A DNA stretch of 64,000 nt from an uncultured Pseudomonadota bacterium (GTDB lineage: Bacteria; Pseudomonadota; Alphaproteobacteria; RF32; CAG-239), in assembly GCA_949292335.1 (NCBI GenBank), contig CASEYY010000041.1:40955-104954 (forward strand), in the 5' to 3' direction. Under the pieces are notes generated by a model. It ran no database searches and was not told the DNA's origin. It worked only from the letters and a program-made list of their open reading frames with translations. Shown here piece by piece: positions 8,657 to 64,000 of the stretch. Each line of letters begins with the position of its first letter. Within the stretch, counting starts at the first letter, position 1. A program made the translations under genes and the position numbers.

Positions 8657-8677
8657 ATCTGCTTAAAAAGCTGTTGA

Positions 8678-8753: not shown

Positions 8754-8766
8754 ATGGGTTGAAAAT

Positions 8767-9885: not shown

Positions 9886-11115
9886 ATGAATCAACTCGCA
9901 TATAGTTTGGCCAGTTTAACTAAGTTAAAGTCAGGTGTAAAACGCCTGACTTTAACTGACTTTAGAAACTACCAATCTTTGCGTATTGAAGCCGAAATCG
10001 CTCCCATTGTTATATATGGCGAAAACGGAAGCGGTAAAACCAATATTTTGGAGGCAATCTCTTTTCTAACTCCGGGAAGAGGTCTCAGAGCTGCCAGACT
10101 GGCTGATATAAAAAGATTTATTCCCCAAATTGCCGCCTCAAACGAAATATCTTTTATCTCTCCGCTTAATTGGGCGGTGGCCGCCGATATTTATTTGAAC
10201 GACGAAGTAGTCAACATTGCTACGGCAGTCGAAAAGTCTAATCGCGAAACATCAGATGACTTTGAGAGTACAACTTCTTTTGAAAGAAGAATTGTTAAAA
10301 TAAATGAGCAAAAAGCATCTTCGCAAGCCGAGTTGGGAAAATATTTTGCGGCAAATTGGATAACTCCGCAAATGGACAGGTTATTCAGGGGTGGAAGCCA
10401 ACCCAGAAGAGCCTTTCTAGACAGGCTGGTATATGCCTTTGATTTTGAACATGGCAAAAGAACCGCAAATTTTGAACACTTGTATCGTGAGTGGTTTCGC
10501 CTGATAAAGTCAGGAAAATCGGACAATATCTGGCTTGATTCTCTAGAAGAAAAAATGGCCGCGGAAGGAGTTGCCATCGCAGCGGCCAGAAAAGAGCAAA
10601 TTACCAGACTTAACGCCTTTATCGAAAATGAGCCTGATGATGTATTTCCTTCGGTAAAGATGGAGCTTTGCGGTATCATCGAAAACGCTTTGGATAAAAA
10701 AGCCGCCGTGGAAGTTGAATTTGACTATAAAAACCTGATAGCCAAACAACGATATAAAGCAATGGAAAATGAATCTCCGGACGGCGTTAACAAAACCGAT
10801 TTTAAGGTCTTCTTTAAAAAGAAAGGTATGCCTGCCGAGTTATGCTCTACCGGCGAACAGAAATCATTGCTTATCAGCATTATTTTAGCCCAAACCAAAT
10901 GCCAGACCTTGCACCAAGGATTTGCTCCGGTTATGTTGCTTGATGAAGTTGCGGCTCACCTTGATGATATAAAAAAAGAGGCTTTACTGAAAAAAATTAA
11001 AGATTTGGGTATTCAAGCTTGGATTACCACTACCAATCCGGAAATTTTTGCTTCCATTAAAAATGACGCACAGTTCTTTTGCCTAAAAAATAATAAGCTG
11101 CTGCAAACAGATTAA
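9886..11115 (+). CDS. recF: DNA replication and repair protein RecF
   Basis: RecF loads RecA at gaps together with RecO and RecR. The 409-residue protein has Walker A GENGSGKTN, the signature region CSTGEQKSLLISII and Walker B VMLLDEVAAHLD, as expected for an SMC-like ATPase. It begins directly after the dnaN stop. recR is also in this window (36814–37407). gyrB, often the next gene, does not follow; an autotransporter gene comes next. Confidence 0.95.
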   Translation: MNQLAYSLASLTKLKSGVKRLTLTDFRNYQSLRIEAEIAPIVIYGENGSGKTNILEAISFLTPGRGLRAARLADIKRFIPQIAASNEISFISPLNWAVAADIYLNDEVVNIATAVEKSNRETSDDFESTTSFERRIVKINEQKASSQAELGKYFAANWITPQMDRLFRGGSQPRRAFLDRLVYAFDFEHGKRTANFEHLYREWFRLIKSGKSDNIWLDSLEEKMAAEGVAIAAARKEQITRLNAFIENEPDDVFPSVKMELCGIIENALDKKAAVEVEFDYKNLIAKQRYKAMENESPDGVNKTDFKVFFKKKGMPAELCSTGEQKSLLISIILAQTKCQTLHQGFAPVMLLDEVAAHLDDIKKEALLKKIKDLGIQAWITTTNPEIFASIKNDAQFFCLKNNKLLQTD

Positions 11116-11141: not shown

Positions 11142-11251
11142 GAATCGCTGCAACGATTTGCGGAGAATCGTCGGTTTTGTTTGCGGGAATCGGTAATTTT
11201 TTGTTAAGCATTGTTAAATAGAATCGACCATGTAATACTGATTCGCGATTC
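11142..11251 (+). promoter_or_regulatory. GANTC-clustered promoter region of autotransporter 1
   Basis: Six GANTC sites lie in 110 bp, at 11142, 11165, 11187, 11221, 11240 and 11247. The core TTGTTAA (11201–11207), 11 bp, TAGAATCGACC (11219–11229) resembles that of the second autotransporter. GAATC overlaps the likely -10 box TAGAAT. TGATTCG at 11239–11245 fits the YGAKTCG motif reported for the regulator GcrA. Confidence 0.55.
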
Positions 11252-11270: not shown

Positions 11271-14200
11271 ATGTTGGTTGTTGAAAAAAAATATATGCTT
11301 TTTACAAGCCGGGCTTTGGCAACATTACTGTTGCTTTACGGAAGCTCCGCTTTGGCCGTTGAGGAAAGCAAAGATGTTTCCTCAGGTGAAACCGTAAACG
11401 ACTTAACCATTTCTACCGACGATACGGCCGACTACGCAATACTCAATGTAAACAGCGGGGGTACGGCTCAAAACACTACCGTAAGTACCGATGGTGTTAT
11501 GTATGTGGCCGGTTCGGCAACGCAAATAACCGTAAACAACCAAGGTGCTGTTGGAGTACAATCCGGCGGAATTGCAAATGACATTTCCTTAGATGAAGGA
11601 TACTTGAATGTTTCTGGTAGCGGCTCGGCGACCAATGTCACAGCTACCAACAATAGTACTATCGATGCTTCTGAAAGCGGAGCTAATATATCCGGTTTAA
11701 CGATGGATTCTTCAAGCAATTTCTATTTTTCGACCAATATTGAATTGTCTGCGGCAACTCTTGACGGTAGTGATATGGGAAGCATAAGTGCCAGTACAGC
11801 TACAGATTTGGTCATCAATAAAGGATCAAACCTTGAAGTAGACAGCGGCGGGTCTGCTAACAACACGACCGTCAACGGCGGAAGTCTTGATGTTATAAAT
11901 GGTGCCTTAATTACCGACACCACGGTAAATAGCGGCGGCACGGTAAATGTTACCTCGGGCTCGGCCGATACGATTACGGTGACCGAAAGCGGAACCGTCA
12001 ATGTTGACAGCTCCTCTACCGTAACCGATGTTACTTTAACCGGAACCGATAGCGATAATCTGGCAGTTATCAATATTAACGGAGGAACCGCACAGAGTAC
12101 TACCCTTAACCAATTTAGCGAGATGAATGTAAACTCCGGCTTGGCCGAACAAACTTCCGTCGGAAATAATGCCGTTATCAATGTCAACGGAGGAACGGCA
12201 AATAATACAACCATACAAAGCGGCGGAACCATTAATGCTACTGCCGCCGGAGTAACCATATCAGATGTTACACTGGAAGACGGAAGTATATTTAATTTTT
12301 CAACCGACGTTTATATCACAGATGTAAAAGCCGCCGACGGCTCGGTCACGGGTGCAACAGTCGAAAATAATACAGCTTCCGGATTTAATATTACCGATGG
12401 TTCAAACTTAACGGCAAATGCAGGCGGAACTATTACAAATTCCACGGTCAGCGGGGGAACGGCAACCGTGGAAAATAACGGTACCATTATTGATACGACT
12501 TTCGAAAACGGAGGCACCTTGGTAGCAAATCAAGCAGGTGCTCAAGTGGGAAACGGTGTTGTAATTGACACTGATACCGGTGCCGGTTTTAATTTGTCGA
12601 CCTCGGCTACGGTTAATGGCTTAACTTATGGGACACAAACCATAAATATTACCGATAATTCAACTTCTGATTTTGACATCTTAGCGGGATCGACACTGGC
12701 TGTTGACAATGCCGGCACTGCTTCAAATATTAATGTTAACGGTGGCACACTTAATGTAAATTCCGGCGGAACCACAAATACCATAACCGTCAATTCGGGA
12801 CAAATGAATATTGATGCCGCTGCGGCTTACAATACCGTAATCAACAATTCTGCCGTCGTTGCCGCAACCGGCAATTCTAGCTTATCTGATACAAATATTA
12901 ATTCCGGCGGAACACTAAACATTAGTTCAGGTACTGCGGCAAACACACTATACATCGGAAACGGCGGAGTATTGAATGTCAATCAAGACGCAACGGCAAA
13001 TGATATTAATGTGAGCGGAACGGCAAATATTAACAACGGAGGATTCGCTTCGGATGTTACGATTAATAATGCCGGTATTTTGAATGTTGCGAATGGGGCA
13101 ACAGCCTCAACGGTCACGACCAACAATGGCGGTATCCTTGTTACATCGGCAGGTGCCACCGTTGATAATCTTACCGCTAATGCAAATTCCATACTCAATT
13201 TGGGCACCGGAACAATACTCAAAAATGCTTTGGTAATCGACAAAGATGCAAATACCGCCGGTTCATCTCTTGACTTCGGCAATTTGTTCGGAACCGGTAC
13301 ACAGCTTACTTCTTTAACCTTAACCAATGGCGTAAATGAGGCTTTCGGCGGAGAACTTACCAGCCAAGCCGCAACAGACACCTCTTTAACCCTTTCCAAC
13401 GGAAATTATATTATTTCCGATAATGGCCAGAACGGCACCGTGCAAGTGAGCGGATGGAACAATGTTACTCTTGCAGAAGCAACCGTAAGATTGGAATCCG
13501 ATGTTACCTTAAACGGAACAGAACAGAACTTTATTATTAATAACGGAGCAACCCTTGATGTGTCCGGAACTTTAGGAAATGTCATAAATGCTTCAATCAA
13601 CGGTAACTTGGTTAATAACGGTACGGTTGATTTTAGTTTAACTTCCGACGGAAGTGCAAATGATATTCTTAACATATCCGGAAATCTTACCGGTGCTACC
13701 GGTTCAAATATTGTAATGAACATAAACACCTTGGCAAATTCTTCCGACAAACTGGTTGTTGGGGGGCAGGTGTCAGGTTCTAACAGTATTTATTTTAAGA
13801 CATCTTCTACCGCTTTGCCATCTGCAAACATCCTTTTCGCCGAAGCTACCGGCGGAATGGCCGATGCTTTCAGTATCTGGAGAGTGGAAGGGTCTCCTTA
13901 TGCTTGGGATGTATTATTTGAAAATAATAAATGGTATGCTTATGTCACAAACGGCAATCAACCGGATGTCGTGCCGGAGATGGCTGCTTATTATGGATTA
14001 ATTGATAATATGTTTATGCAGACTACCAACTTAGGAGCAAATTTACGGAACCTGATGACAGAAAGTTCGTTCCGTAAGGCTCCTTGTAGGGTTCCTAATA
14101 ATCTTAAATACACCAACCGTATTTGTTATAGCAATCGTCCAGTCCTTTCGGGTTGGTTCGCTCCGGTATATAGTTCGGCCGAGGTAAAATCTCCGTATAA

Positions 14201-14933
14201 TTATGAAGCCTCTCTATATGGGGCTGACGGCGGACTGGATATACTGGGTGACGGAAATACCAAATTCGGTATTATGGCTTCCTATCGCAACGGTTCTTAT
14301 AATTTTGACGATAACGGTACTAATTACGCTATTACAAATTCTGCCGAAACAACTCTTAACTCTTATATGGGCGGTATTTACATAAGACACGATAGTAATT
14401 ATCTGTCTTTGATTGCCGCAGCTTATGCCGGTAAAGTTGATGCCGATATCTCTACCGATGACAGGGTCAGTGCCGATACATCCGCTACCGTGACCGGTGC
14501 AACCCTTGATGTTAATTATATTTGGCAAAACATCAGCGGATTCCGCATTGAACCGGGGGTTAGAATTTCTTATACTAGGTTAGCGGTTGATGATCTTAAC
14601 GATAATGCCGGAAAATCCGTTGACTTTGGTAACAGCTCAAGAATTGAAGCCGAAGCCGGAATTAAATTTGCTCAAAGATGGGAATTCCGCGACGCAAAGG
14701 CCGAGATTTTCTTTAGACCGGCAATCTTGCAAACCATAAATGACGGTAATGATTTTGAGCTGATTATCGATAGATATTTCGAATCTCTGGAAGATCGCAC
14801 CCTTACCAGACTTGAACTGGGTACTTCTTTTGATATGCTTGGTAACTGGAGTGCGGCAATGTCGGGAGCTTACACCTTTGATTCCGACTACAGCGATATC
14901 TCCGCTAAATTAAGCCTGCAGTATAATTTCTAG
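11271..14933 (+). CDS. AIDA-type repeat autotransporter adhesin (paralogue 1)
   Basis: This is a predicted type V secreted surface protein of 1220 residues. It has a signal peptide ending near SSALA, then a long passenger made of about 20-residue strand-loop-strand repeats of the form VNSGGTANNTTV..GG, as in AIDA-I-like adhesins, ending at about residue 900. A linker with two Cys (APCR and ICYS, about 938 and 952) precedes a C-terminal autotransporter beta-barrel ending in LQYNF. WRVEGSPYAWD and NKWYAY before the barrel are shared with the paralogue at 37535. The start is placed at ATG 11271; ATG 11295 is an alternative. Its stop overlaps the convergent ABC transporter gene. Confidence 0.9.
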   Translation: MLVVEKKYMLFTSRALATLLLLYGSSALAVEESKDVSSGETVNDLTISTDDTADYAILNVNSGGTAQNTTVSTDGVMYVAGSATQITVNNQGAVGVQSGGIANDISLDEGYLNVSGSGSATNVTATNNSTIDASESGANISGLTMDSSSNFYFSTNIELSAATLDGSDMGSISASTATDLVINKGSNLEVDSGGSANNTTVNGGSLDVINGALITDTTVNSGGTVNVTSGSADTITVTESGTVNVDSSSTVTDVTLTGTDSDNLAVININGGTAQSTTLNQFSEMNVNSGLAEQTSVGNNAVINVNGGTANNTTIQSGGTINATAAGVTISDVTLEDGSIFNFSTDVYITDVKAADGSVTGATVENNTASGFNITDGSNLTANAGGTITNSTVSGGTATVENNGTIIDTTFENGGTLVANQAGAQVGNGVVIDTDTGAGFNLSTSATVNGLTYGTQTINITDNSTSDFDILAGSTLAVDNAGTASNINVNGGTLNVNSGGTTNTITVNSGQMNIDAAAAYNTVINNSAVVAATGNSSLSDTNINSGGTLNISSGTAANTLYIGNGGVLNVNQDATANDINVSGTANINNGGFASDVTINNAGILNVANGATASTVTTNNGGILVTSAGATVDNLTANANSILNLGTGTILKNALVIDKDANTAGSSLDFGNLFGTGTQLTSLTLTNGVNEAFGGELTSQAATDTSLTLSNGNYIISDNGQNGTVQVSGWNNVTLAEATVRLESDVTLNGTEQNFIINNGATLDVSGTLGNVINASINGNLVNNGTVDFSLTSDGSANDILNISGNLTGATGSNIVMNINTLANSSDKLVVGGQVSGSNSIYFKTSSTALPSANILFAEATGGMADAFSIWRVEGSPYAWDVLFENNKWYAYVTNGNQPDVVPEMAAYYGLIDNMFMQTTNLGANLRNLMTESSFRKAPCRVPNNLKYTNRICYSNRPVLSGWFAPVYSSAEVKSPYNYEASLYGADGGLDILGDGNTKFGIMASYRNGSYNFDDNGTNYAITNSAETTLNSYMGGIYIRHDSNYLSLIAAAYAGKVDADISTDDRVSADTSATVTGATLDVNYIWQNISGFRIEPGVRISYTRLAVDDLNDNAGKSVDFGNSSRIEAEAGIKFAQRWEFRDAKAEIFFRPAILQTINDGNDFELIIDRYFESLEDRTLTRLELGTSFDMLGNWSAAMSGAYTFDSDYSDISAKLSLQYNF

Positions 14934-36813: not shown

Positions 36814-37407
36814 ATGGCAGGAAAAGATATTGAAGTATTGATAAAACAAATTGCAAAACTACCTTCTCTCGGCTCTCGTTCGGCCAGAAGGATTGTTTTG
36901 CACCTCTTGAATAAACGAGAGACCGCTTTTGAACCTTTGATTGCCGCATTAAACAATGTAGCTCAAAATATTAAAACCTGCGAAATCTGCGGAAATTTTG
37001 ATACCGTAAGTCCCTGCCCGATTTGTTCGTCATCCAACCGCGATAATTCGATTATTTGTGTGGTACGTGATGTTGCTGATTTGTGGGCAATGGAAAGGGT
37101 TTCCCTTTTTAAGGGAAAATATCATGTCTTGGGCGGCGTTTTATCGGCCATGGAAGGCATTGTTCCGGAAGACTTGAATATCGATAGCTTGGAAAAAAGA
37201 GTAGCCTCCGGAGAGGTGAAAGAGCTGCTCTTGGCATTACCTGCAACCATCGACGGACAAATTACTTCTCATTATCTGTTCTCTAAATTCAAAACTTATG
37301 ACCTTAAAATCACTACCTTGGCACAAGGTATTCCTATGGGAGCTGAGCTTGACTATATGGATGAGGGAACAATTCAGTTGGCTCTCAATTCCAGAAAAGT
37401 CTTATAA
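36814..37407 (+). CDS. recR: Recombination protein RecR
   Basis: RecR acts with RecF and RecO in gap repair. The 197-residue protein has a helix-hairpin-helix (IAKLPSLGSRSARRI), the zinc finger CEICGNFDTVSPCPIC and a Toprim domain (ICVVRDVADLWAMER, TIDGQITSHY). It is the last gene of dnaX–ybaB–recR. Confidence 0.96.
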   Translation: MAGKDIEVLIKQIAKLPSLGSRSARRIVLHLLNKRETAFEPLIAALNNVAQNIKTCEICGNFDTVSPCPICSSSNRDNSIICVVRDVADLWAMERVSLFKGKYHVLGGVLSAMEGIVPEDLNIDSLEKRVASGEVKELLLALPATIDGQITSHYLFSKFKTYDLKITTLAQGIPMGAELDYMDEGTIQLALNSRKVL

Positions 37408-37429
37408 AATACCTTTTTCAAACTAAAAG

Positions 37430-37529
37430 GAATCGACTTTTTTGGACTCCGCGAATCATAAAGATGAATCATAAATATTTTGTTAATATTTTTTTCCTAG
37501 AATCGACTCATAAGCGATTCGGAGGATTC
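37430..37529 (+). promoter_or_regulatory. Dense GANTC cluster upstream of autotransporter 2
   Basis: Eight GANTC sites occur in 100 bp, at 37430, 37445, 37453, 37466, 37500, 37505, 37516 and 37525; two are directly abutting (GAATCGACTC at 37500–37509). A TTGTTAA (37480–37486), 11 bp, TAGAATCGACT (37498–37508) core matches that of autotransporter 1. CGATTCG at 37515–37521 fits YGAKTCG. The GGAGG ribosome site lies inside the cluster. Confidence 0.65.
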
Positions 37530-37534
37530 TTGTT

Positions 37535-40042
37535 ATGATGTCTAAAAAAAGTTCGTTATTCCTTTTAACCACAACCTTTTTTAGCTTGTGTTCAACAAGT
37601 GTTTTGGCTGACAACTATACTTCGGGAACATATGATGATTATATCGTACATACCGGATATCCTCAACTTGGTATAGCTCAAGATGCAACTGCCGATGGTA
37701 CTATCGTTAATTCCGGCGGTAATTTTTCGGTTTTTGATAACGGTCATGTTACCAATACAACTGTCAATCAAGGCGGTAATTTCTATGTGGCTAATAATGG
37801 ATTTTCTGACGGAACAACCGTGAATGGCGGGGGATATGTCGAAGTGCAGGGTTCCGGAAATGCCAGTAATTTGACCGTGAGCGGGTCCGATATTACAAAT
37901 ACCGGACGAATTACCGTACAAGCCTTCGGAAATGTTGATAATGTAACTGTCAATGATAACGGTAATCTATATGTAAGCGGTGTCGCCACTGATGTAAACC
38001 AAAATGCCGGCTGGATTAATGTCCAGAACGGCGGCACAGTTAATAACCTTACTCTCAACAACGGCGAAACCTATTTGGAAACCGGCGGCATCATTAATAA
38101 TATGGTGATGTTCGACGGACAAGCCAGTGTTGCCAATAATTCTTCATTGTCGGGACTGACTATGACCGGCGGATCTATTACGTTGCATAATGCTTCAAAT
38201 TTGGAAAATGCTTCAATTTCTCAGGACGCCGTCGCGGATGTTTTCGGTAACGCAACTAATGTTACGGTAGATGACGGCGGTACATTAAATGGTAAGTTCG
38301 GCGCAACTATTGAAAACTTAAATGCCGGAAACGGTGCTCTTATTGATTTGGAAAACGGCGTTGTCTTACAAGGAAATAATGTTTTCTCAAATCAGGCACA
38401 GATGGGCGGGTCTTTTGACTATATTACTTTTGCTCAAAATATTACCGGAAATATCACTTTGGAGGGCGGAATAAATTCTGCTTTGGGTATTAGTTTCGGA
38501 ACTACTGCCGATGACACTTCCATTACCTTGAAAAATGGTGATTTTGACATTGGAACCGGAACCGTCGACATTATCGGTTTTGATAATATGTTTTTGTTGT
38601 CTGATAACCCTGAAACTTATCCGACAACGGTTTTGTTGTCGGGTGATTTGGACTTAAATACCGACAGTAATGTAACTATAGGATCCGGCGTAACCGTTGA
38701 AACCGCCAGTCAGAACCTATCTATGACCGGTAATCTGTTTAATAACGGGGTGCTTGATATTTCTTCCACATCTGCCGATAATGATTTTACTATTGAAGGA
38801 AATTATACTTCAAATAACGCTTTGTTGAAGCTAAATATTAATCCTGATGCAAGCTCCGCCGATGTCTTGACTATTGAAGGCGATGTACAAGGAACCACTA
38901 ATGTTCATTTGTTTGCAACTTCTAACAATATGAGTAAAGGTGAAATATTATTTGTTGACGCTCAAAATGATGATACTCACACCGCTTCTGATTTTAATAT
39001 TTGGCGTGTGGACGGAAGCTCATATGCTTGGGATACCATCAATCGCGGAAATAAATGGTATGCTTATTCGACTAATGTGATGAGCGAAGTTGCCGCTTAC
39101 GCCGGATTGTTAGAAAATGCTTTAATGCAAAATCATTCTTTGATTGCTGATTTGAGAAAAAATATTGCTCCAAATCATCTAAATGTCAGAACTTGTTTGC
39201 AAGAAACGCCTTTTTCAAAAGCTTTATATTGTAAGCCGGAAACCGCTCGCCTTTCTGCCTTTGTTTCTCCGGTATATTCAAAAGCAAATGTTGAATTCCC
39301 TTTGAGTTACGAAGCAGAAATCAGCGGTGTCGATGCCGGCTTAGACCTTGTATCTGACGGAACTCACAAAGTTGGTATTATGGCTTCGGTAAGAGATGGT
39401 TCGTACGAATTTAGCGGAAATTCCGATAAATATAACTTTAGCGGATCAGCAGAGACTTCTATCGACAGCTATTTGGCTGGAATATTCTACAGAATGGATA
39501 AAAATCATCTGTCTACAGTGGCTGCTATATACGGAGAAGTGCTTAAAGCCGATTTCTCTTCAAATGATGGTGTAACCGCCGATACCGACGGACACATTGT
39601 CGGTGCATCTCTTGATGTTTCGTATATTTTTAACGAAATTAAAGATATTTCAATCGAACCATCCTTGAGGATAACATACGAAATGCTTAATCTTGATGGC
39701 TTTACCGATAATGCCGGAAAATCCGTGGATTATGACAAGCTGCACTATGTGGAAGTTGAGTTCGGTACCAAATTTGCTAAAAACATGATGTTTGATAATG
39801 GTGCTTTGGCTCAAATCTATTTCAAACCTTCTCTTATCCAAACTTTTAACTCGGTCAAAGATATACAACTCAGCGATGGTTTAGTCCTTGACGGAACTCA
39901 AAACCGTACTTTAGGAAACTTAGAGATTGGTGCAAATTACCAGTTTAACACGGATTGGAGCTTTGGTGCTTTTGCTGATTATACCTTTGGTGACGAGTAT
40001 AGCGAGTGGTCTGCATCACTAAACTTATTGTATCATTTCTGA
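37535..40042 (+). CDS. AIDA-type repeat autotransporter adhesin (paralogue 2)
   Basis: This 835-residue protein is the shorter relative of the one at 11271. It has a signal peptide ending near SVLA, a passenger of repeats such as TTVNQGGNFYVANNG and VNVDDGGTLNG-like units to about residue 330, a non-repetitive beta-rich part, then WRVDGSSYAWD and NKWYAY, a Cys pair (RTC…LYC, 13 residues between), and a C-terminal barrel from about residue 570 ending in LLYHF. The barrels of the two proteins share many segments (for example APVYSSA versus SPVYSKA, DNAGKSVD in both). GGAGG precedes the ATG. It converges on cvpA with two bases between the stops. Confidence 0.9.
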   Translation: MMSKKSSLFLLTTTFFSLCSTSVLADNYTSGTYDDYIVHTGYPQLGIAQDATADGTIVNSGGNFSVFDNGHVTNTTVNQGGNFYVANNGFSDGTTVNGGGYVEVQGSGNASNLTVSGSDITNTGRITVQAFGNVDNVTVNDNGNLYVSGVATDVNQNAGWINVQNGGTVNNLTLNNGETYLETGGIINNMVMFDGQASVANNSSLSGLTMTGGSITLHNASNLENASISQDAVADVFGNATNVTVDDGGTLNGKFGATIENLNAGNGALIDLENGVVLQGNNVFSNQAQMGGSFDYITFAQNITGNITLEGGINSALGISFGTTADDTSITLKNGDFDIGTGTVDIIGFDNMFLLSDNPETYPTTVLLSGDLDLNTDSNVTIGSGVTVETASQNLSMTGNLFNNGVLDISSTSADNDFTIEGNYTSNNALLKLNINPDASSADVLTIEGDVQGTTNVHLFATSNNMSKGEILFVDAQNDDTHTASDFNIWRVDGSSYAWDTINRGNKWYAYSTNVMSEVAAYAGLLENALMQNHSLIADLRKNIAPNHLNVRTCLQETPFSKALYCKPETARLSAFVSPVYSKANVEFPLSYEAEISGVDAGLDLVSDGTHKVGIMASVRDGSYEFSGNSDKYNFSGSAETSIDSYLAGIFYRMDKNHLSTVAAIYGEVLKADFSSNDGVTADTDGHIVGASLDVSYIFNEIKDISIEPSLRITYEMLNLDGFTDNAGKSVDYDKLHYVEVEFGTKFAKNMMFDNGALAQIYFKPSLIQTFNSVKDIQLSDGLVLDGTQNRTLGNLEIGANYQFNTDWSFGAFADYTFGDEYSEWSASLNLLYHF

Positions 40043-55877: not shown

Positions 55878-56462
55878 ATGAAGCTTGTTGCTATTACCGG
55901 TTCAATAGGATGCGGAAAAACTACCTTGGCAAATATTGTAAGAGGTCTTGGTTATGCCGTGTATGATGTCGATGCCTGGGTTAGAAAAATATATAATAAT
56001 AAAAATTTTTTAATTAGGCTTAAATCATTGTTTCCCGAAAGTGTTAAAAACGGAATTGCCGATAAGAGATATTTAAGAAATATAGTATTTTCCGATAAAG
56101 AAAAATTAAAAAAATTGGAAGATATTATATATCCTATTCTTAATACCAAGATTAAAAAAATTATAAATAAAAAAGCTAAAGATAATTATATTGCTTTTTT
56201 AGATATAGCATTGCTTTTTGAAAAAAATTGGGATAAATACTGTGATGTCATAGTTTTAGCCGATGTTGATTATAATACACAAAAGCAACGCGTTATGAAA
56301 AGAGATAATATTTCGGCTGAAGATTTTGATAAGATAAATAATACTCAAATGAATAATAATCATAAAAAATATTTGTCTGATATTATAATTGATACTAATC
56401 GTCCGCTTAATATCCTTAAAACAGAATTAATTAACATTATAAGTGCTTTGGAAGAAAATTAA
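55878..56462 (+). CDS. coaE: Dephospho-CoA kinase
   Basis: CoaE performs the last step of coenzyme A synthesis. The 194-residue protein has Walker A GSIGCGKTT, DVDAWVRKIY and FLDIALLFEKNW. The start is ATG 55878 behind GGTGG; the upstream in-frame TTG is less likely. The gene is markedly AT-rich compared with genes on the left, as is common next to origins. It overlaps dnaQ by one base. Confidence 0.93.
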   Translation: MKLVAITGSIGCGKTTLANIVRGLGYAVYDVDAWVRKIYNNKNFLIRLKSLFPESVKNGIADKRYLRNIVFSDKEKLKKLEDIIYPILNTKIKKIINKKAKDNYIAFLDIALLFEKNWDKYCDVIVLADVDYNTQKQRVMKRDNISAEDFDKINNTQMNNNHKKYLSDIIIDTNRPLNILKTELINIISALEEN

Positions 56463-57148
56463 TGGTCAGAGAAATTGTTTTTGATACAGAAACTACAGGT
56501 TTTGAATATGCTAAAGGTCATAGATTGATTGAAATAGGGGCGGTGGAGTTGATTAATCATCTACCTACCGGTAAAACTTTTCATCAGTATATTAATCCGG
56601 AAAGAGAAGTTCCGGAAGATGCTGTTAAGGTACATGGTCTTACTTATGAAATTTTAAAAGATTATCCGACTTTTGATAAAATTGCCGATAAATGGTTGGA
56701 TTTTATAGGTGATGATAAATTAGTGGCTCATAATGCTTCTTTTGATATGAATTTTGTTAATTATGAGTTAAAGCAAATTAATAAAAAACAAATGTCTTGG
56801 GATAATTGTATTGATACTTTGGAAATTGCCAGAGCTATGTTTCCGGGGGCAAGGTGCAGCCTCGATGCATTATGTAAAAGATTTGAAATTGATAATAGTG
56901 CTCGTACTTTTCACGGGGCTTTGCTTGATGCTCAACTGTTATCTGAGGTTTATCTTGAATTGTTAGGCGGAAAAGAGCCAAGTTTGTTGTTGGATGCTAA
57001 AAAACAACAAAATAAAATAGAATTAGTAAACAAAAGTGATGGAAATAATTTTAGAAAACCCAGAGTTTTTAATATTGATGAAAATTTTGAGGAACAACAT
57101 CAACAGTTTTTGGAAAAAAATGTAAAAAATCCAATTTGGAATCTTTGA
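56462..57148 (+). CDS. dnaQ: DNA polymerase III epsilon subunit (proofreading exonuclease)
   Basis: This is the 3'-5' proofreading exonuclease. Motifs are ExoI EIVFDTETTGF, ExoII AHNASFDMNFV and ExoIIIe FHGALLDAQLLSEVY with its catalytic His and Asp. The 228 residues include a C-terminal tail for polymerase contact. coaE–dnaQ beside the origin is conserved in alphaproteobacteria. Confidence 0.95.
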   Translation: MVREIVFDTETTGFEYAKGHRLIEIGAVELINHLPTGKTFHQYINPEREVPEDAVKVHGLTYEILKDYPTFDKIADKWLDFIGDDKLVAHNASFDMNFVNYELKQINKKQMSWDNCIDTLEIARAMFPGARCSLDALCKRFEIDNSARTFHGALLDAQLLSEVYLELLGGKEPSLLLDAKKQQNKIELVNKSDGNNFRKPRVFNIDENFEEQHQQFLEKNVKNPIWNL

Positions 57149-57215
57149 TTTTTATTGATTTTTAAGTATTTTTTTATTACAATCCCGCTGTTTGTGCTAA
57201 CAAAAGGATAATAAT

Positions 57216-57887
57216 GTGGTTTTAGGTAAAAATATTGTTATTTATGATTTAGATGATACTTTGTATAATAAAACAGAGTATTTTGCCGATATTCTCGATA
57301 CCGTTATGGCTGAGGCTTTGGTCTATGATTTGGGCCTTGATATGGATGTAGAAAAAGCTAAAAAATTAGTTACCGAATCATATAAAATTTATCGTGACGG
57401 CGGTGAGATTTTTTATCAAAATTACAATATAAAACCAAAAGATTTGTTTATTGCTTACCATAAGAGAAAGCCGGTTGAAAAAATAGTTCCATACGATAAT
57501 CTATTGGAAAAAATCGAAAAGGTTCCGGCAGAACAATATGTGTTTACCGCCAGTGACCGTTATGCTTCGGAAAAAATTCTTAAACATCTGGGTTTGTATG
57601 AATTTTTTAAAGACAGATATTATTCGGTGGAAGATTTTGGTGTATATAAAAAAAATGAAAATTCAAAGGTTTATAAAGAATTTTGTAAAAAAATAAATGT
57701 GAAACCGGAAGATTGTGTATTTGTTGATGATAGCTATTCTAATCTTGAATTTGCCAAAGAGGCAGGAATGACCACAGTGAGAATTTATTATCACAATAAC
57801 TCAACAAAAGATAAAACTTTTATTGATTATGCCTATAAGGGGATAGAAAGCTTTTTGGAAGAGGTATTAAGCGGCAGAGCTTCTTAG
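57216..57887 (+). CDS. HAD-superfamily pyrimidine 5'-nucleotidase-like protein
   Basis: The 223-residue protein has HAD motif I YDLDDTLYNKTEYF, FTASDRYASEKILKHLGLYEFF, and VFVDDSYSNLEFAKEAGM, the pattern of SDT1/Pyr-5-nucleotidase proteins. The start is GTG 57216, with AAAGGA at good spacing; an overlapping ATG at 57214 is in another frame and closes after three codons. It converges on the next gene. Confidence 0.83.
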   Translation: MVLGKNIVIYDLDDTLYNKTEYFADILDTVMAEALVYDLGLDMDVEKAKKLVTESYKIYRDGGEIFYQNYNIKPKDLFIAYHKRKPVEKIVPYDNLLEKIEKVPAEQYVFTASDRYASEKILKHLGLYEFFKDRYYSVEDFGVYKKNENSKVYKEFCKKINVKPEDCVFVDDSYSNLEFAKEAGMTTVRIYYHNNSTKDKTFIDYAYKGIESFLEEVLSGRAS

Positions 57888-57889
57888 CT

Positions 57890-58549
57890 TTATTGACAAA
57901 GCTTACTTTCAAATTTGTAGTTTTGGGGTTTATCAAGTCTTTGTTGTTGATTGATAATCTCTTTTTTTATGTAGTTTACTAAAGGAAGCAGTTTTTGATT
58001 AAATTCTATAGTCATTTGTGAAATATTTTCTTGAGTATTATTTAAGTTATCGGTTTTTATCGGAGTTATTTTTTTCGATAATTTTTCGGCGGCATCCTTA
58101 AATAAAGGAAGATAGTATTCAAGGGTTGCAACATTTATTTGATGATGAACCTGTTCGTGGTATAATACAATATTGTACTCGCAGCTTTCTGCTTGCAGTT
58201 CTTTTGAAAGATAAATTGTTGGATTACTCAAACCTAAAAATAAATTTATTTTTGCCGGTATTATACAATATGTTTTTTCATCAATTTGAACACCTTCTGC
58301 TTCAAGAGATATGTCAAAATCAATATTTACCGTTGATAAACCAGAAGCAAAAAGTCCGTGTTCTATACTATTTAATTTTTCTGCCAAAGATGATATTTCT
58401 TCTTGGCTTTTATCATAAACACCGGTCAGTTTGCCAAAAGAAGAAGTTAGTTCTATTTCCGGGTTTATTGGTAAAGATGAGCAGTCGGCCGCTAAGGCAA
58501 AACGGCTTAAAAAAATTAAATTTGTTAATATAAAAAAAATCTTTTTCAT
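57890..58549 (-). CDS. Secreted protein with HExxH metallopeptidase-like motif
   Basis: The 219-residue precursor has a signal peptide ending near ALAA. It carries HEQVHH at residues 131–136, preceded by hydrophobic NIVLY; HExxH is the zinc-binding signature of zincin peptidases. A third ligand was not identified with certainty. Four Cys may form disulfides. I do not recognise a family. It begins a group of small envelope genes unique to this stretch. Confidence 0.68.
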   Translation of the reverse strand: MKKIFFILTNLIFLSRFALAADCSSLPINPEIELTSSFGKLTGVYDKSQEEISSLAEKLNSIEHGLFASGLSTVNIDFDISLEAEGVQIDEKTYCIIPAKINLFLGLSNPTIYLSKELQAESCEYNIVLYHEQVHHQINVATLEYYLPLFKDAAEKLSKKITPIKTDNLNNTQENISQMTIEFNQKLLPLVNYIKKEIINQQQRLDKPQNYKFESKLCQ

Positions 58550-58594
58550 GATAACATGATGCTATCGTTTAATTGTTAATTTATGGTTATAAAT

Positions 58595-58984
58595 ATGCGA
58601 AAAATTTTATTGTTTTTAATTTTAGTGATGGCTTGTCAATTTGCTGAAGCCAGATATGTACGACAGTTAAAAGAACCTGATTTTTTTATTCCGGAAACAG
58701 ATAAAATGCACAAAGTCGAAAAATTGCCGGACAGTAAAAAATTTATTGAATATGACAGAAAAATAAATATGCCGGATTATAAGAAAAAATATGATGTTTA
58801 TCTGTCAAATCTAAAAAAATTTGCTGACAGTGGTGAGTTGGTTTTAGATGACAATATAGCCGTTGATATTGCCAAAATGACAACCGGAGAAGTTTTTGTG
58901 ATTGAGGCAGAAACATTACCGCATATCAACACGCAAGAACAAAGAGAGTTCTATCTTTTGGTTGATAAATTGTCAGAAAATTAA
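58595..58984 (+). CDS. Small secreted hypothetical protein
   Basis: The product (129 residues from this ATG) has a signal peptide (MRKILLFLILVMACQFAEA) and a charged mature part without Cys. An in-frame ATG 12 bases upstream (58583) would add MVIN. No family was recognised. It is divergent from the HExxH gene and converges on the lipoprotein gene, where the two ends overlap by four bases. Confidence 0.6.
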   Translation: MRKILLFLILVMACQFAEARYVRQLKEPDFFIPETDKMHKVEKLPDSKKFIEYDRKINMPDYKKKYDVYLSNLKKFADSGELVLDDNIAVDIAKMTTGEVFVIEAETLPHINTQEQREFYLLVDKLSEN

Positions 58985-59448
58985 AATTCTACAGCATACA
59001 TATCTATTATATGCCATTTGGAATCGTAATTTTTCATGACATATATGATGTTTCCGTTGCACAGACCAAACCAACTACCATTGCATGAACTTTGGGTATA
59101 TACCTCAACGGCGCCGTCATCACGAGGTTTCATTTTGGTAATTTGGTATGATTGAAATGTTGGTCGTTGCAGAGTTTCATCCTGCATAAAGATAAAATCA
59201 GGTAAAATATTTTTGTTTTTTTCGCATTCGGCAAAATTAGGGTCAATTATACATTTAACTGCCAAACTTATGGTACATACAACTTCTGATGAGCTACTGC
59301 AACCTGCCGTTAAATTGTCGGAAGAAAAAGAAAAAACCGTTTCTTTATCCAGGGTTTGATCAGCTTGGGCTGCTTTTTCGGCGGTGGTGTCCTCTTTTGA
59401 GCAAGCAAAAAGCATAAGCAATAAAAAAGAGAGAAGAAATTTTTTCAT
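58981..59448 (-). CDS. Putative lipoprotein of unknown function
   Basis: The 155-residue precursor has a lipobox (LLMLFAC, Cys about residue 16), so it should be a lipoprotein. The mature part has several further Cys (AGCSS, VVCTI, VKCII, AECEK, SSCNG, GLCNG), pointing to a disulfide-rich periplasmic domain. No family was recognised. It lies 10 bp downstream of the OMP gene and probably shares its transcript. Confidence 0.65.
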   Translation of the reverse strand: MKKFLLSFLLLMLFACSKEDTTAEKAAQADQTLDKETVFSFSSDNLTAGCSSSSEVVCTISLAVKCIIDPNFAECEKNKNILPDFIFMQDETLQRPTFQSYQITKMKPRDDGAVEVYTQSSCNGSWFGLCNGNIIYVMKNYDSKWHIIDMYAVEF

Positions 59449-59458
59449 TTTTTATTCC

Positions 59459-59992
59459 TTAAAAAACATATTTTAAATTAAGTGAAAATTCGGATATATG
59501 ATCCATTCCGTCGAGCTTATCGGTTAAGATATAGCGGCCGAGTGCTCTGACAGCTATATTGTCGGTTATTTTATATTGTAGGCCTCCGCCCATACGGTAA
59601 CCAAGCCCCCAGTCTTTGTTGTCTTTACCGAATTCATATCCGGAGATACCAAGTGTGGCAAAGGGTGCTATTCTTTGTTCACAACCTAAAGGAAGATAGG
59701 TATAGGTATCAAGACCATAGGCGTAGAAATCACTGCTTATTTTGGTGCCATCAACAACCTTGTGCCAGGTCGTACTTTGTTGGTAAAACACCTCGGTACC
59801 AAAATATTTGTTGTATTCACTTCCGACAAAAGCAGTGTAAGAATTCATATTTATGTTGGTAGGTGTTGCTTTATAATTGATGTGGTCGGCACTGTAGCCA
59901 ACACCGACATAAGGTCTGTAATCAAGAGCCTCCGCTTCTTGTAACAAGGCTAATGTTGAAAAAAAGCTTAAAAATGTAAAAAATTTCTTCAT
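59459..59992 (-). CDS. Small outer-membrane beta-barrel protein
   Basis: The 177-residue precursor has a signal peptide (ending EAEA) and alternating beta-strands typical of an eight-stranded barrel (YRPYVGVGYSADHI, GLGYRMGGGLQYKITDNIAVRALGRYI), ending in LNLKYVF with the C-terminal Phe needed for BAM. The function is unknown. A short palindrome (ATTGCC-ATT-GGCAAT, about 60020–60034) lies in its promoter region. Confidence 0.8.
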   Translation of the reverse strand: MKKFFTFLSFFSTLALLQEAEALDYRPYVGVGYSADHINYKATPTNINMNSYTAFVGSEYNKYFGTEVFYQQSTTWHKVVDGTKISSDFYAYGLDTYTYLPLGCEQRIAPFATLGISGYEFGKDNKDWGLGYRMGGGLQYKITDNIAVRALGRYILTDKLDGMDHISEFSLNLKYVF

Positions 59993-60068
59993 TTTAATCT
60001 CCAGATGAAAAAGATATAATTGCCATTGGCAATATTATATATATAATATATCAATAAAAGTAAAACAA

Positions 60069-60090
60069 AAAACAACAAGATTGTTGTTTT
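60069..60090. promoter_or_regulatory. Inverted repeat between the OMP and pilin genes
   Basis: AAAACAACAA-GA-TTGTTGTTTT, two perfect 10-bp arms around two bases, placed 30 bp before the pilin gene and between divergent genes. It may be an operator. Confidence 0.4.
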
Positions 60091-60119
60091 AATAAAAAAA
60101 TTGAAGAAGAGGGGTTAAA

Positions 60120-60719
60120 ATGTCCGGCATAAATAAAATAAATCAGTCCGGTGCAACCATGCTTGAAGCTATTGGTGTTTTAACGATTATAATAATGCTC
60201 GGAGTTTCAATCATTAAGCTTATAAACAGTATTTATGCCATATTTACACAAAATATGGTCTCGGGTGAAGTCAGAGATTTGCAAAAAGCAATTTCCGATA
60301 TTTACAGATTTGAGGGAAATTATAATGTGCTGTTTGACAACGGTGACACTTCAAAGTATTTGTGCGATAATAAAATTGCCCCTTTTCAGATGTGTGTTAA
60401 CAATAAATTGCGAAGTCGCAGCGGCGGAGAAGTGAGAATTGATAAGGATCCTAATGCGGAAAATAACGATAGGTATGCAATTATTTTTGAAGATTTATCG
60501 CAAAAAATTTGTGTAAATGCAGCTCAAATAAATTGGAGTAAAGACCAAAGGTCAAGTATATATAGTTTGACCATAAATAATAAGACTGTTGATTTACCAA
60601 AAAACGCTCCAAGCGGCTGTGATAACAACGGTAACTACTGTTTTCCGATATCGGCAAGTGTTGCAATGAAGTTGTGCAATAAAGAAAAAGATAATGATAT
60701 GGTATTTGTTTTCTACTAG
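60120..60719 (+). CDS. Type IV prepilin-like protein
   Basis: The 199-residue protein has a short basic leader and a prepilin cleavage site: QSG then ATMLEAIGVLTIIIML, with Glu at +5 and a 20-residue hydrophobic helix, as in type IVb or PilS-like pilins. A C-terminal region with Cys (SGCDNNGNYC) fits a pilin disulfide loop. Ribosome site GAGGGG is strong. No assembly ATPase, platform protein, secretin or prepilin peptidase gene is in this window, so it is an orphan here. Confidence 0.75.
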   Translation: MSGINKINQSGATMLEAIGVLTIIIMLGVSIIKLINSIYAIFTQNMVSGEVRDLQKAISDIYRFEGNYNVLFDNGDTSKYLCDNKIAPFQMCVNNKLRSRSGGEVRIDKDPNAENNDRYAIIFEDLSQKICVNAAQINWSKDQRSSIYSLTINNKTVDLPKNAPSGCDNNGNYCFPISASVAMKLCNKEKDNDMVFVFY

Positions 60720-60730
60720 GAGTAAATTTT

Positions 60731-61153
60731 TTGATTAAGATAGATGATTTGGGAAAAACCGGTGAATTATCAAAGAGCAAGGGAATAAAAAAATCTTACT
60801 CCGGTGAAAGTTTTGCAACTTACCTTAAAACGGGCAGTACTTCTCAGACCGAAAATTTACAACATACGGCGGCAATGACCTCGGCTGATGCCATTTTTGC
60901 GGCACAGATGGTTAACGATGAGGAAGAAAGACAAAAAAGAAATAAGATGGTGAAAAAAGGAAATGATTTGCTGGATGGTCTGGAAGATATAAGGCAGTCA
61001 TTGTTGGCCGGTGAAATTGATAAAGATAAATTGATTAACATTTCGCGGCTTGTTAAGCAAAAAGATACCGAAACCAGCGACCCCAAGTTGCAGGAAATAA
61101 TACAAGAAATCGAACTGCGGGTTGAGGTCGAATTGGCAAAACTTACAAGGTAG
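60731..61153 (+). CDS. fliX: Flagellar assembly regulator FliX
   Basis: FliX links flagellar basal-body assembly to late flagellar gene transcription in alphaproteobacteria. The 140-residue protein has the conserved central ADAIFAAQ and LLDGLEDIRQSLLAGE, and the C-terminal SDPKLQEIIQEIE…VELAKL, a close match to Caulobacter FliX. The start is TTG 60731, with AGGAG at good spacing. It precedes dksA, a typical arrangement. No other flagellar gene is in the window. Confidence 0.85.
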   Translation: MIKIDDLGKTGELSKSKGIKKSYSGESFATYLKTGSTSQTENLQHTAAMTSADAIFAAQMVNDEEERQKRNKMVKKGNDLLDGLEDIRQSLLAGEIDKDKLINISRLVKQKDTETSDPKLQEIIQEIELRVEVELAKLTR

Positions 61154-61252
61154 AATTAGCAAAGGAAAAAGCAATAATTTTACTTGAATTTTTATTTGTT
61201 TATTATATCTTGAGTTAAAATTTTTATAATTGCTTTTTAAGGAGTTGGAATA

Positions 61253-61678
61253 ATGGACAGTGCCATTTCTTTGCCGCCTGATTATAGGCCTTCGGAAGAT
61301 GAAGAATATATGAATGAAATGCAACTGGAGTATTTCAGACAGAAGTTATTGGAGTGGAAGAAATCTTTAATCGGTCAATCAAAAGATACTTTGGATGATT
61401 TGAAACAAGGCGGTCTTAACCAGCCCGATCAGATTGACAGAGCTTCTTTGGAATCCGATAAGGCTTTGGAATTGAGAACTCGTGACAGAGCAAGGAAGCT
61501 GATTGTAAAGATCGATGAAGCTTTGAAAAGAATTGAAGATAAGACTTACGGTTATTGCGAGGAAACCGGTGATCCGATTGGGCTTGAAAGACTTGAGGTC
61601 AGACCGGTTGCAACTTTGTCTATCGAAGCTCAGGAACGTCACGAAAGAATGGAAAAAACTTACGACGACGAAGTGTAG
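61253..61678 (+). CDS. dksA: RNA polymerase-binding transcription factor DksA
   Basis: DksA enters the RNA polymerase secondary channel and acts with ppGpp. The 141-residue protein has the coiled-coil with DRASLESDKALELRTRDRA and the C-terminal zinc-finger region GYCEETGDPIGLERLEVRP, in which most of the four Cys are missing, as is normal for alphaproteobacterial DksA. GGAG precedes the ATG. Confidence 0.93.
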   Translation: MDSAISLPPDYRPSEDEEYMNEMQLEYFRQKLLEWKKSLIGQSKDTLDDLKQGGLNQPDQIDRASLESDKALELRTRDRARKLIVKIDEALKRIEDKTYGYCEETGDPIGLERLEVRPVATLSIEAQERHERMEKTYDDEV

Positions 61679-61689
61679 TTTTTATTAAG

Positions 61690-61724
61690 GTTGAGGGTTT
61701 TTAGTTTTTGCTAAAAACCCTTTT
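61690..61724 (+). terminator. Terminator of dksA
   Basis: AGGGTTTTTAG / CTAAAAACCCT stem followed by TTTTTG, 12 bp after the dksA stop. Confidence 0.8.
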
Positions 61725-61751
61725 TGTTTTTAAATAAATAGGATTTAATCT

Positions 61752-62318
61752 ATGAAAGATTTTATTTTGGCATCACAATCGCCACAAAGAATAGCTTTGC
61801 TTAAACAAATAGGTTTCGAACCCAAAAAAATTGAGCCCGCAGATATTGACGAAACACCAAAAAAAGGTGAAAAGGCAAGCCAATATGTTAAAAGAATGGC
61901 TAAAGAAAAAGCTTGGGCGGTGGCTCAAAAAAATGGTGGTGAAGTTGTTTTGGCTTCGGATACGGTGGTGGTGTGCAATAATAAAATAATTCAAAAATCC
62001 AAAAATGACGATGAGCAGGTTGCCGTTATGCGGTTGCTTTCCGGTAAAAGCCACAGAGTTTTAACTGCGGTGTGTGTGGTTGATAAAAATAAAAATATAG
62101 CTATCAGATTAAATACTACCAAAATAAAAATGAAACATATGTCGGAAAAGGAGATTGAGGAGTATGTTGCTTCAAAAGAGTGGGTCGGTTGTGCCGGATA
62201 CAAAATAGAGGGCTGTTTGGCCGCTTTGGTTTTGAATATGAACGGATCTTACAGCGGAGTGGTAGGGTTGCCGCTATATGAAGCTAAATCTTTGCTAAAC
62301 GGAGCCGGAGTAAATTGA
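61752..62318 (+). CDS. maf: Maf family nucleoside triphosphate pyrophosphatase
   Basis: Maf proteins hydrolyse non-canonical or modified nucleotides. The 188-residue protein has FILASQSPQRIALLKQIGF, the catalytic ASDTVV and KSHRVLTAV, and YKIEGC. Its stop overlaps the start of rng. maf–rng–yacG is a standard alphaproteobacterial operon. Confidence 0.93.
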   Translation: MKDFILASQSPQRIALLKQIGFEPKKIEPADIDETPKKGEKASQYVKRMAKEKAWAVAQKNGGEVVLASDTVVVCNNKIIQKSKNDDEQVAVMRLLSGKSHRVLTAVCVVDKNKNIAIRLNTTKIKMKHMSEKEIEEYVASKEWVGCAGYKIEGCLAALVLNMNGSYSGVVGLPLYEAKSLLNGAGVN

Positions 62319-63472
62319 TGATGATTGATAAAATTGTGGTCGAAGAAAAAGGTTCGGTTAAGAAAATTGCCGGATTGTGTGACGGAAAATTGACCGAATT
62401 TGTAGTTGGTGATAAAAATAATGCCGGTGAGGGGGATATTTTTATCGGCAAGATAGTAAAAAAAATTAAGACCGCCAATAATCATGAAGGATATTTTGTA
62501 AATATCGGCGATGAAAAAGAAGCTTTTATTAATGCCGCAGAAAGAGATTTAGAAGATTTGCGTGCTAATGAGGGGCAAGACATTATTGTTCAGGTTATAC
62601 AAGAAAAAAGGGCCGAAAAAGGGGCTAAATTGTCGAGATTTTTGCAGCTAGCAGGGCAGTATGTGGTTTTTTGTCCGTATGGTTGCGAAATTCAGGTTTC
62701 GAGCAAAATTACCGATGAAGAAAAAAGGGATGAGCTTTTTGGACAGGCGACGGACAGGCTTGGCGAGGGTGGTTGGATTGTCAGAACCGAAGCGGCAGAG
62801 GTTGATTTTGATAAAATTATTGATGAAAGTAAGGTTTTGGAAAATGTTTTTGCCGATATTATAAGCAAGGCAAAGACTGCCAAAGCTCCGGAAAAATTGT
62901 TTTGCCGCGACAATGCTTTAGATGAGATGATAAACCGTAATATAAGTTATTTGCAAAAAGTGGTGGTCAATTCTCATCTGCTTGAGGGTGAGCTTAAAGA
63001 AAAGGTTGATGTTGAGTATGATGTGAAAGCCTTTGAAAATGCCGGAATCGATGAAATGGTTGGTGAGGCTTTGGCAAAAATTGTAAAGCTAAAGTGCGGC
63101 GGCAGAGTCATTATAGAAGAAACTAAAGCGTTTGTTGCCATAGATGTTGACAGCGGAGAGGGATGTTTGCAAGGAAATGTCGGTCTTTTGAATAAAGAAG
63201 CGGCAGAAGAAATTGCCAGGCAGATAATTTTAAGAAATTTATCGGGTAAAATAGTTATAGATTTTGCCGGACTTACCGATTTTAAGTTTTTAAGAAACAT
63301 TATTGAGACCTTAAACAACTGCTTGGCCGATGACCCTATGAAAGCAACCGTTTTGGGGTTAACCAGAGCCGGTAATGTAGAGATTATAAGATCGAGAAGA
63401 AGACCGACTTTGACAGATTTGTTTACCGAAGAATGTACATCTTGCAGAGGAACGGGGAGAGTGGAAAAATGA
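62315..63472 (+). CDS. rng: Ribonuclease E/G family protein (short form)
   Basis: This is an endoribonuclease of 385 residues. It has an S1-like domain near residues 35–95 ([26 protein letters not shown]), the catalytic metal-binding VAIDVDSG and KIVIDFAGL, and the zinc-link CTSCRGTG at the C terminus. It lacks the long C-terminal scaffold of RNase E, so it is RNase G-like. It is shorter than E. coli RNase G (about 490 residues), as is usual for this alphaproteobacterial form. It overlaps maf and yacG. Confidence 0.9.
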
Positions 63473-63657
63473 AATGTCCGATTTGTAAAAAAGAAGTTGA
63501 AGATATGAAATATCGTCCTTTTTGCTCAAAAAGATGTGCCGATATTGATTTGGGAAATTGGTTTAACGAAAAATATAAGTTTGAAGCGACGGAAGTTGAT
63601 GAAGAAGATTTGGCCGAACTTGAAAAAATGAAGAACGGCGGCGAGGAGCAAGAATAA
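63469..63657 (+). CDS. yacG: DNA gyrase inhibitor YacG
   Basis: This 62-residue zinc protein has CPICKK and, 15 residues on, [16 protein letters not shown], the YacG signature. In E. coli it inhibits gyrase. It starts at ATG 63469, overlapping the rng stop (ATGA); the upstream in-frame sequence in rng is not YacG-like. Confidence 0.93.
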
Positions 63658-63706
63658 TTGCAGTTATTTTGAGTTGGCAAAAAAATTTAGCCAAACTAAG
63701 AAAAAA

Positions 63707-63731
63707 TTAACCTTTCATTAAATAGAATCGA
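63707..63731 (+). promoter_or_regulatory. CtrA-type box and GANTC core at the window end
   Basis: TTAA-CCTTTCA-TTAA (63707–63721) is an exact TTAA-N7-TTAA match and runs into ATAGAATCGAGG, with TAGAAT at 63723–63728 and GAATC at 63725–63729. TTAAATAGAATCGA is also present before autotransporter 1. A second GANTC is at about 63756, within a GGCAGAA/TTCTGCC hairpin. Confidence 0.5.
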
Positions 63732-63831
63732 GGAAATGAGGCAGAAGAGGAGCGATTCTGCCTTAAGGTTTTGGTATGTAGTTGTAAGAGATTGATTTTT
63801 AACAAAAGGTTTGTTTTAGAGAAATACGATG

Positions 63832-63860
63832 TTGTTTTGGTGCAGAAAAAGTGGTATTAT
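63832..63860 (+). promoter_or_regulatory. Predicted promoter of a small RNA
   Basis: TTGTTT (63832–63837), 17-bp spacer, TATTAT (63855–63860). Confidence 0.4.
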
Positions 63861-63865
63861 AAGCA

Positions 63866-63976: not shown

Positions 63977-64000
63977 GCCTCAAATAGAAATCTCTTAAAA

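Follow-up and report, generated by a model that had tools for sequence, protein, structure and literature searches.

What is a crowd of GANTC motifs doing in the short gap before an autotransporter gene of an uncultured alphaproteobacterium? The question was raised by a window of 64,000 nucleotides (the whole stretch of DNA that was analysed), in which eight GANTC sites, counted as a motif without strand, occur at 37430, 37445, 37453, 37466, 37500, 37505, 37516 and 37525. The preliminary description of this DNA had reported eight sites at 37430 to 37529, and all of them fell within exactly those coordinates. The details that it gave could be confirmed as well: sites 37500 and 37505 abut, site 37500 lies inside a TAGAATC at 37498 to 37504, and site 37525 shares one base with a Shine-Dalgarno-like GGAGG (37521 to 37525, forward strand, read from the sequence) that precedes the ATG at 37535. 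The gene starting there (37535 to 40042, forward strand) was indeed an autotransporter gene. Its 835-aa product matched PF03797, PF16168, TIGR01414 and TIGR04415 (84 bits for the Pfam Autotransporter family and 32 bits for AIDA), and it has an N terminus that by eye resembles a signal peptide, a passenger of AIDA/strand-loop-strand repeats, and a C-terminal beta-domain at about residues 591 to 812. Upstream of it lie dnaX, ybaB and, as the immediate neighbour, recR (36814 to 37407, forward strand, identified by family search).

The motif count also revealed a second cluster, with six sites at 11142, 11165, 11187, 11221, 11240 and 11247 (11142 to 11251, again without strand). It precedes another autotransporter gene (11271 to 14933, forward strand), for which the ORF was listed from a TTG at 11211; the ATG at 11271 seems to be the likelier start. 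The genes dnaA, dnaN and recF (7193 to 11115, forward strand) are found just upstream. The two autotransporters are 34% identical over 868 aligned columns and, judged by that identity, are paralogues. Neither of them reached the Ag43/Cah equivalog profile NF033177, with 40.0 bits for the 835-aa protein and 71.8 bits for the other against a cut-off of 1200. Five further GANTC sites were noticed in the 450-bp gap before dnaA (6743 to 7192).

Over the whole window, GANTC occurred 154 times, compared with 203 expected from dinucleotide shuffles. The motif is therefore under-represented overall, in agreement with published findings on Alphaproteobacteria that have CcrM (PMC3973325). Simulated 64-kb sequences (Markov-1, 300 runs) had at most five sites per 100 bp, a number reached once. 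The rate in 412,910 bases of the window's own genome (about 28% of it) was one site per 570 bp, and the densest 110-bp stretches of this sample were those at 37430 to 37529 (eight sites) and 11142 to 11251 (six sites), the next separate ones holding four. Intergenic regions of the same sample were delimited with a simple in-house ORF caller, which gave 208 gaps of at least 40 bp. The gap before the gene at 37535 had both the most GANTC sites and the highest density of them (6.3 per 100 bp). Second by density was the gap before the recF-linked autotransporter gene (3.2 per 100 bp), with three of its six sites counted because the TTG start shortens the gap, and the third-ranked value, 2.5, came from a single GANTC in a gap of 40 bp bordering the end of a sampled stretch. 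The preliminary description had proposed such a ranking as a check; within the roughly 28% of the genome sampled, the array is an outlier and not of ordinary density. GANTC exceeded the window rate 26-fold and 16-fold in the recR- and recF-linked autotransporter gaps, respectively, and when 16 pentamers with palindromic ends were compared, GANTC alone was strongly enriched, the next best values being 2.1 and 3.4. It was not raised in intergenic DNA generally (one per 632 bp, versus one per 563 bp in coding DNA of the own-genome sample).

The same genome encodes a RAMA-domain methylase resembling CcrM (597 bits) and a GcrA-like protein (115 bits). Both scores are below the NCBIfam equivalog cut-offs (830 and 280, respectively), and the matches to the RAMA domain (PF18755) and to PF07750 exceed their own cut-offs. 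CtrA is encoded as well, with 402.8 bits for NF045991 against a cut-off of 350. GcrA matches were found in 32 of the 39 genomes searched, including this one, and RAMA matches in 33 of 36.

A comparison across relatives, also proposed at the outset, showed that the layout of the array is kept in a recF-linked and a recR-linked set. The comparison set comprised 36 genomes of the genus, with the window's own genome designated G000. The recF gene was found in 33 of them, and 30 recF loci were read. An autotransporter gene follows recF in eight (G000, G011, G002, G039, G044, G005, G042 and G010), and in these loci the first 250 bp past recF contain six to nine GANTC sites, whose positions are fixed. 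In G050 (L132, 1393 to 1845), five GANTC sites, most of the motif described below and a CtrA-like box follow recF without an autotransporter, and an ABC transporter gene converges on them. The remaining 21 recF loci have zero to three sites. For recR, likewise found in 33 of the 36 genomes and read at 30 loci, an autotransporter gene follows only in G000 and G048, the two proteins being 75% identical. The orthologous recR promoter of G048 retains seven of the eight GANTC sites. In G011, where RecR is 98% identical, recR and a colicin-V-production-like gene lie 3 bp apart with no autotransporter between them. This tight junction indicates that the promoter-plus-autotransporter unit was gained or lost whole.

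Are the sites conserved beyond what descent alone would leave? Membership of the recF-linked set was decided by protein synteny, independently of the motif, with the sites defined from one reference row, which introduces a mild circularity. Across its nine species, G050 included, all 12 fixed letters of the three core GANTC sites and all eight half-site letters of the CtrA-like box were invariant, compared with 24 of the 75 remaining columns (the box spacer, with two of seven, is among these). When all four GANTC sites of the set were considered, 13 of 16 letters were invariant (Fisher P = 0.0004 against the other columns, the rows being related). One explanation is that the similarity is inherited or due to chance and has no function, the recR promoter being a recent copy and its sites leftovers. 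The autotransporters are indeed paralogous, and the recR promoters of G000 and G048 are still identical at 115 of 130 aligned positions, but the core sites stayed fixed in nine species in which the non-site promoter columns were on average 67% identical. Barring an unusually low mutation rate there, this contradicts leftover similarity, which we consider very unlikely.

The association with autotransporters is partial. The upstream region could be read for 27 autotransporter-like ORFs, of which 15 had at least four GANTC sites and 12 had zero to two. Sites were counted between about -200 and +60, both window genes were included, and L088, L095 and the first ORF of L093 were omitted since they are cut by contig ends. 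A motif scan of GTDB genomes matched 50 stretches, 27 of them with at least four GANTC sites around the match; 25 of these 27 are in assemblies labelled uncultured Alphaproteobacteria, proteobacterium or Azospirillum, several of them from gut. On the best reading, an unusually dense array has stayed together with Ag43/AIDA-like autotransporters in some members of the genus.

To describe the promoter anatomy, 22 elements were aligned, nine after recF, two after recR, six by polA and/or gyrB (neighbour names assigned by eye) and five others. Eleven came from a motif search, so that their GACTC...GAATC letters are fixed by construction, those of the box are not, and these elements cannot count for conservation of the GACTC-GAATC pair. 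The five others were located before an autotransporter gene found by protein search (P0001, in G013), before a partial ORF with an AIDA match (G008), before two ORFs in G003, one partial with a Chlam_PMP repeat match and one with no Pfam match, and at L252, with no large secreted ORF seen downstream. A CtrA-like box was present in all 22 elements, starting 26 to 27 bases before the putative -10 sequence, which corresponds to -38/-39. It matched TTAA-N7-TTAA at eight of eight letters in four elements (two of which are near-identical G003 copies), at seven in 17 and at six in one, whereas letter-shuffled sequences reached at least seven letters in 3.3% of cases in the same search. In the recR-linked promoter of the window, the box is TAAA-N7-TTAA (37472 to 37486, forward strand; seven of eight letters), with its 5' base at about -38 as counted from a putative -10 sequence, TAGAAT (37498 to 37503, forward strand), that was placed by the alignment and overlaps the GANTC at 37500 to 37504. 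Transcription would then start near 37510. In the recF-linked promoter, the box is GTAA-N7-TTAA (11193 to 11207, forward strand), with one mismatch, and the putative -10 sequence TAGAAT (11219 to 11224, forward strand) overlaps the GANTC at 11221. Caulobacter CtrA full sites have their 5' base at -39 in the examples at activated starts given in PMC4287350. Thus, a TTAA-N7-TTAA box near -39, as in promoters of the CtrA regulon, is found in both window promoters, with one mismatch in each and at a distance reckoned from the inferred -10.

GANTC sites recur at about -99, -89, -83 (in some elements), -66, -44/-45 and -10 relative to the putative -10 sequence, and in many elements again past the start. 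The recR- and recF-linked promoters of the window share the same 34-bp spacing between the -44 and -10 sites. Eleven of the 22 elements have TAGAATC where the alignment puts the -10, and seven of the nine recF-linked ones have a poorer TTAgCCT-like sequence there, without GANTC. No sigma-70 consensus pair was found in 37380 to 37560. Given the putative -10, GANTC lies at or near -10/-35, as in GcrA/CcrM promoters, and in Caulobacter its placement relative to these elements goes with timing, a position between them going with activation at 40 to 60 minutes (PMC4287350). The middle base of the motif is also skewed: in all 22 elements it was A 75, C 20, G 10 and T 1 times upstream of the start and T 17 and C 1 times downstream, and in the 11 elements found by synteny, it was A or C at 48 of 49 upstream sites and T at 13 of 14 downstream sites, these sequences being related and not independent. 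An extended GcrA motif, YGAKTCK, is given in PMC7987155, and the orientation of the sites here would fit it on the lower strand. The likely CtrA box, which is absent from the preliminary description, strengthens the cell-cycle part of its proposal, and this anatomy suggests that adhesin expression is timed to the cell cycle.

Part of the motif, however, is not confined to adhesin genes. A short form, GACTCAAAMNGARTC, was found at 33 places in 22 of the 36 genus genomes, compared with none for the reversed control; outside the genus, in the other 238 genomes sampled from the class (240 in all), it occurred at nine places versus 13 control matches. Many of the places in the genus precede the S10 ribosomal operon (rpsJ by eye). 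In the window's own genome, for example, four GANTC sites and GACTCAAACAGAGTCTGAGTC lie at L113 (G000:C9, 10344 to 10392), about 300 bp before the S10 operon. The 14 distinct S10 elements have two to six GANTC sites each, and none has a perfect CtrA box; at the matching place, four box letters are present in nine of them, five in four and six in one. A second ribosomal-protein operon with a cluster was noticed at L214 (G012:C1, 3325 to 3418), where four GANTC sites precede an rpsL-like gene (by eye).

Alternatively, the array might serve as operator for a different sequence-specific regulator, which would use GACTCAAAMMGARTC-N10-TTTG as its site at autotransporters and the S10 operon; GANTC would then belong to the motif of that regulator, methylation being incidental. 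Conservation of the central N, invariant at three of four sites of the synteny-found recF set, would fit such an operator, as would conservation of some GANTC-flanking letters, the occurrence of the GACTCAAAMMGARTC-N10-TTTG piece upstream of the S10 operon in elements that lack a perfect CtrA box, and the concentration of the shorter form in the genus. Against this, the sites at -66, -44, -10 and past the start are GANTC too, and GANTC is the only pentamer of its class with strong enrichment. Moreover, the recR promoter lacks GACTCAAAAC and keeps GANTC at about -80, -65, -57, -44, -10, +6 and +15 in both species. We regard a regulator of this kind as unlikely.

Six of the aligned elements adjoin polA and/or gyrB (L234, L258, L269, L274, L275 and L278), and no autotransporter was seen at them. 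The downstream gene converges in most cases, and L275 is followed by a gene of another kind. These stretches are noncoding, with up to ten GANTC sites followed by a conserved hairpin and an invariant CAAAGCTTTG. The hairpin comes just after the putative -10 sequence and is supported by the alignment (alifold value of -7.1, versus -0.2 with an SD of 0.4 for 30 column shuffles; six sequences, two of them near-identical), so an RNA may be made from it, and we regard the stretch as a candidate small RNA. A known RNA was not recognized there; the two Rfam matches, obtained with four of the six loci (L173, L180, L184 and L185), were both far under the gathering score. The motif part before the S10 operon and the elements without an autotransporter show that the array is not specific to adhesins, and a reading confined to adhesin genes was ruled out by the S10 and polA/gyrB elements.

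The neighbourhood of the elements raised another question, namely, whether the GANTC element is a replication origin or an origin-control sequence with the autotransporter as a passenger. It adjoins dnaA-dnaN-recF or polA/gyrB, it is kept in G050 without an autotransporter, and GANTC motifs have been reported in the Caulobacter origin (PMC3973325). In G002, moreover, the element (144 kb) lies inside a flat plateau of the cumulative GC skew at about 50 to 190 kb, with the numerical minimum at 126 kb. The box searches covered 400 kb in G002 and, with 72 kb masked, 394 kb in G012. The only sites combining three DnaA-like boxes with two perfect CtrA boxes were at 188.9 kb in G002 (L203, on C1) and 202.2 kb in G012 (L224, on C1), between rho and coaE-dnaQ (flanks named by Pfam for G002 and by eye for G012). 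These likely oriC regions contain two of the nine perfect CtrA boxes found in 400 kb of G002 and two of the nine found in 322 kb of G012, and they are 45 kb and 53 kb, respectively, from the GANTC element. In G002, the skew is steadily positive from 190 kb onwards, and in G012, it has its minimum at 205.6 kb. The placement is less sharp in G002 than in G012 because of the flat skew, and a second cluster of three DnaA-like boxes at 319 kb in G012, without a CtrA pair, is adverse to it. No DnaA-like box was found within the elements of the six relatives scanned, and the two clusters of the window genome are each located at an autotransporter. The element thus does not show the DnaA-box cluster at a GC-skew turn expected of a chromosomal origin, the turn being sharp in G012 and broad in G002. 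With the DnaA and paired CtrA boxes located elsewhere in two relatives, the GANTC elements are near, and not at, likely origins, and we hold an origin function to be highly improbable.

Taken together, we read the array as a composite CtrA and CcrM/GcrA cell-cycle promoter for Ag43/AIDA-like autotransporters, and we assign this reading a probability of about 0.6 on the basis of sequence comparison. CcrM would methylate the GANTC sites of the array, and the methylated array would recruit GcrA, which would bring sigma-70 RNA polymerase to a promoter without a good consensus. Phosphorylated CtrA bound at the box could add activation or repression. Passage of the replication fork would leave the whole array hemimethylated at once, and we propose that adhesin output is thereby set in a replication-dependent window. 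Such a window might be early and long, since in two relatives the likely origin is no more than about 55 kb from the element. The recR-linked copy is a paralogous promoter-plus-autotransporter unit with unchanged core spacing.

In Caulobacter and Brevundimonas, promoters of the GcrA/CcrM type (mipZ, podJ, ctrA P1) likewise have GANTC at or around -10/-35 and occur with CcrM- and GcrA-like genes, and alteration of GAnTC crippled several GcrA-dependent promoters by 60 to 80% (PMC3667746). Here, TAGAATC overlaps the putative -10, which is a further likeness; a difference is that the recF- and recR-linked elements have five to nine sites. More than one GANTC within 50 bp was reported for 11 of the 96 Caulobacter cell-cycle starts having a GANTC (PMC4287350); the mipZ promoter has two (PMC3667746) and P169 four (PMC5172544). 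The likeness to CtrA-activated Caulobacter promoters consists of the TTAA-N7-TTAA-like box, whose 5' base is at -38/-39 counted from the inferred start, and of a CtrA scoring over the cut-off, but here the box is mostly one letter off and is embedded in the GANTC array. With genes for large adhesin-like surface proteins placed behind promoters so rich in CcrM sites and bearing a likely CtrA site, a link between surface display and chromosome replication is suggested. We found no paper in the open-licence literature that ties GANTC or CcrM to autotransporters.

Ag43 of Escherichia coli (agn43/flu) is controlled by Dam and OxyR. The likeness to this system lies in an autotransporter of distant family resemblance and in adenine-methylation sites clustered at its promoter; the enzyme and site differ here, GATC being absent from both gaps, and a CtrA-like box is present. 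Could the array be an epigenetic ON/OFF switch of the kind described for Ag43 (PMC13076061), in which a protein blocks remethylation and expression becomes heritably bistable? The weak Ag43-like matches to NF033177 and the many sites within one promoter point that way, as does a Caulobacter promoter with four GANTC sites kept hypomethylated by MucR, which keeps some GANTC sites unmethylated (PMC5172544). The MucR family, however, had no match in the 36 genus genomes, with a control that matched in Caulobacter, and a switch of this kind seems improbable to us. The bistability put forward in the preliminary description was not borne out, with no evidence of a switch found. Its broader proposal, cell-cycle- or methylation-gated expression, held in part: the CcrM-, GcrA- and CtrA-like genes, the outlier density and the conserved layout favour it, and the S10 and other non-autotransporter elements and the 12 autotransporter-like ORFs with few sites do not. 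A bolder version, that in this gut lineage a CcrM-based equivalent of Dam-controlled Ag43 arose independently, with the GANTC array and CtrA box giving replication-timed, possibly heritable display and the piece in common with the S10 operon coupling adhesion with growth, is speculative and rather unlikely.

If the composite CtrA and CcrM/GcrA promoter is real, chromosome replication would time surface adhesion in uncultured gut bacteria. The conserved array would then offer a natural system for studying how the response depends on the number of methylation sites, a question not easily answered with promoters that have one or two sites.

Two further observations concern other parts of this genome. 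GC skew was strongly positive at 56000 to 64000 of the window (0.07 to 0.35 in 2-kb steps) and mostly negative at 40 to 56 kb. At L106 (G000:C1, 13733 to 13806), tandem repeats with GAATCATTTTGA are present in an ORF that by eye resembles a plasmid or phage replication protein.
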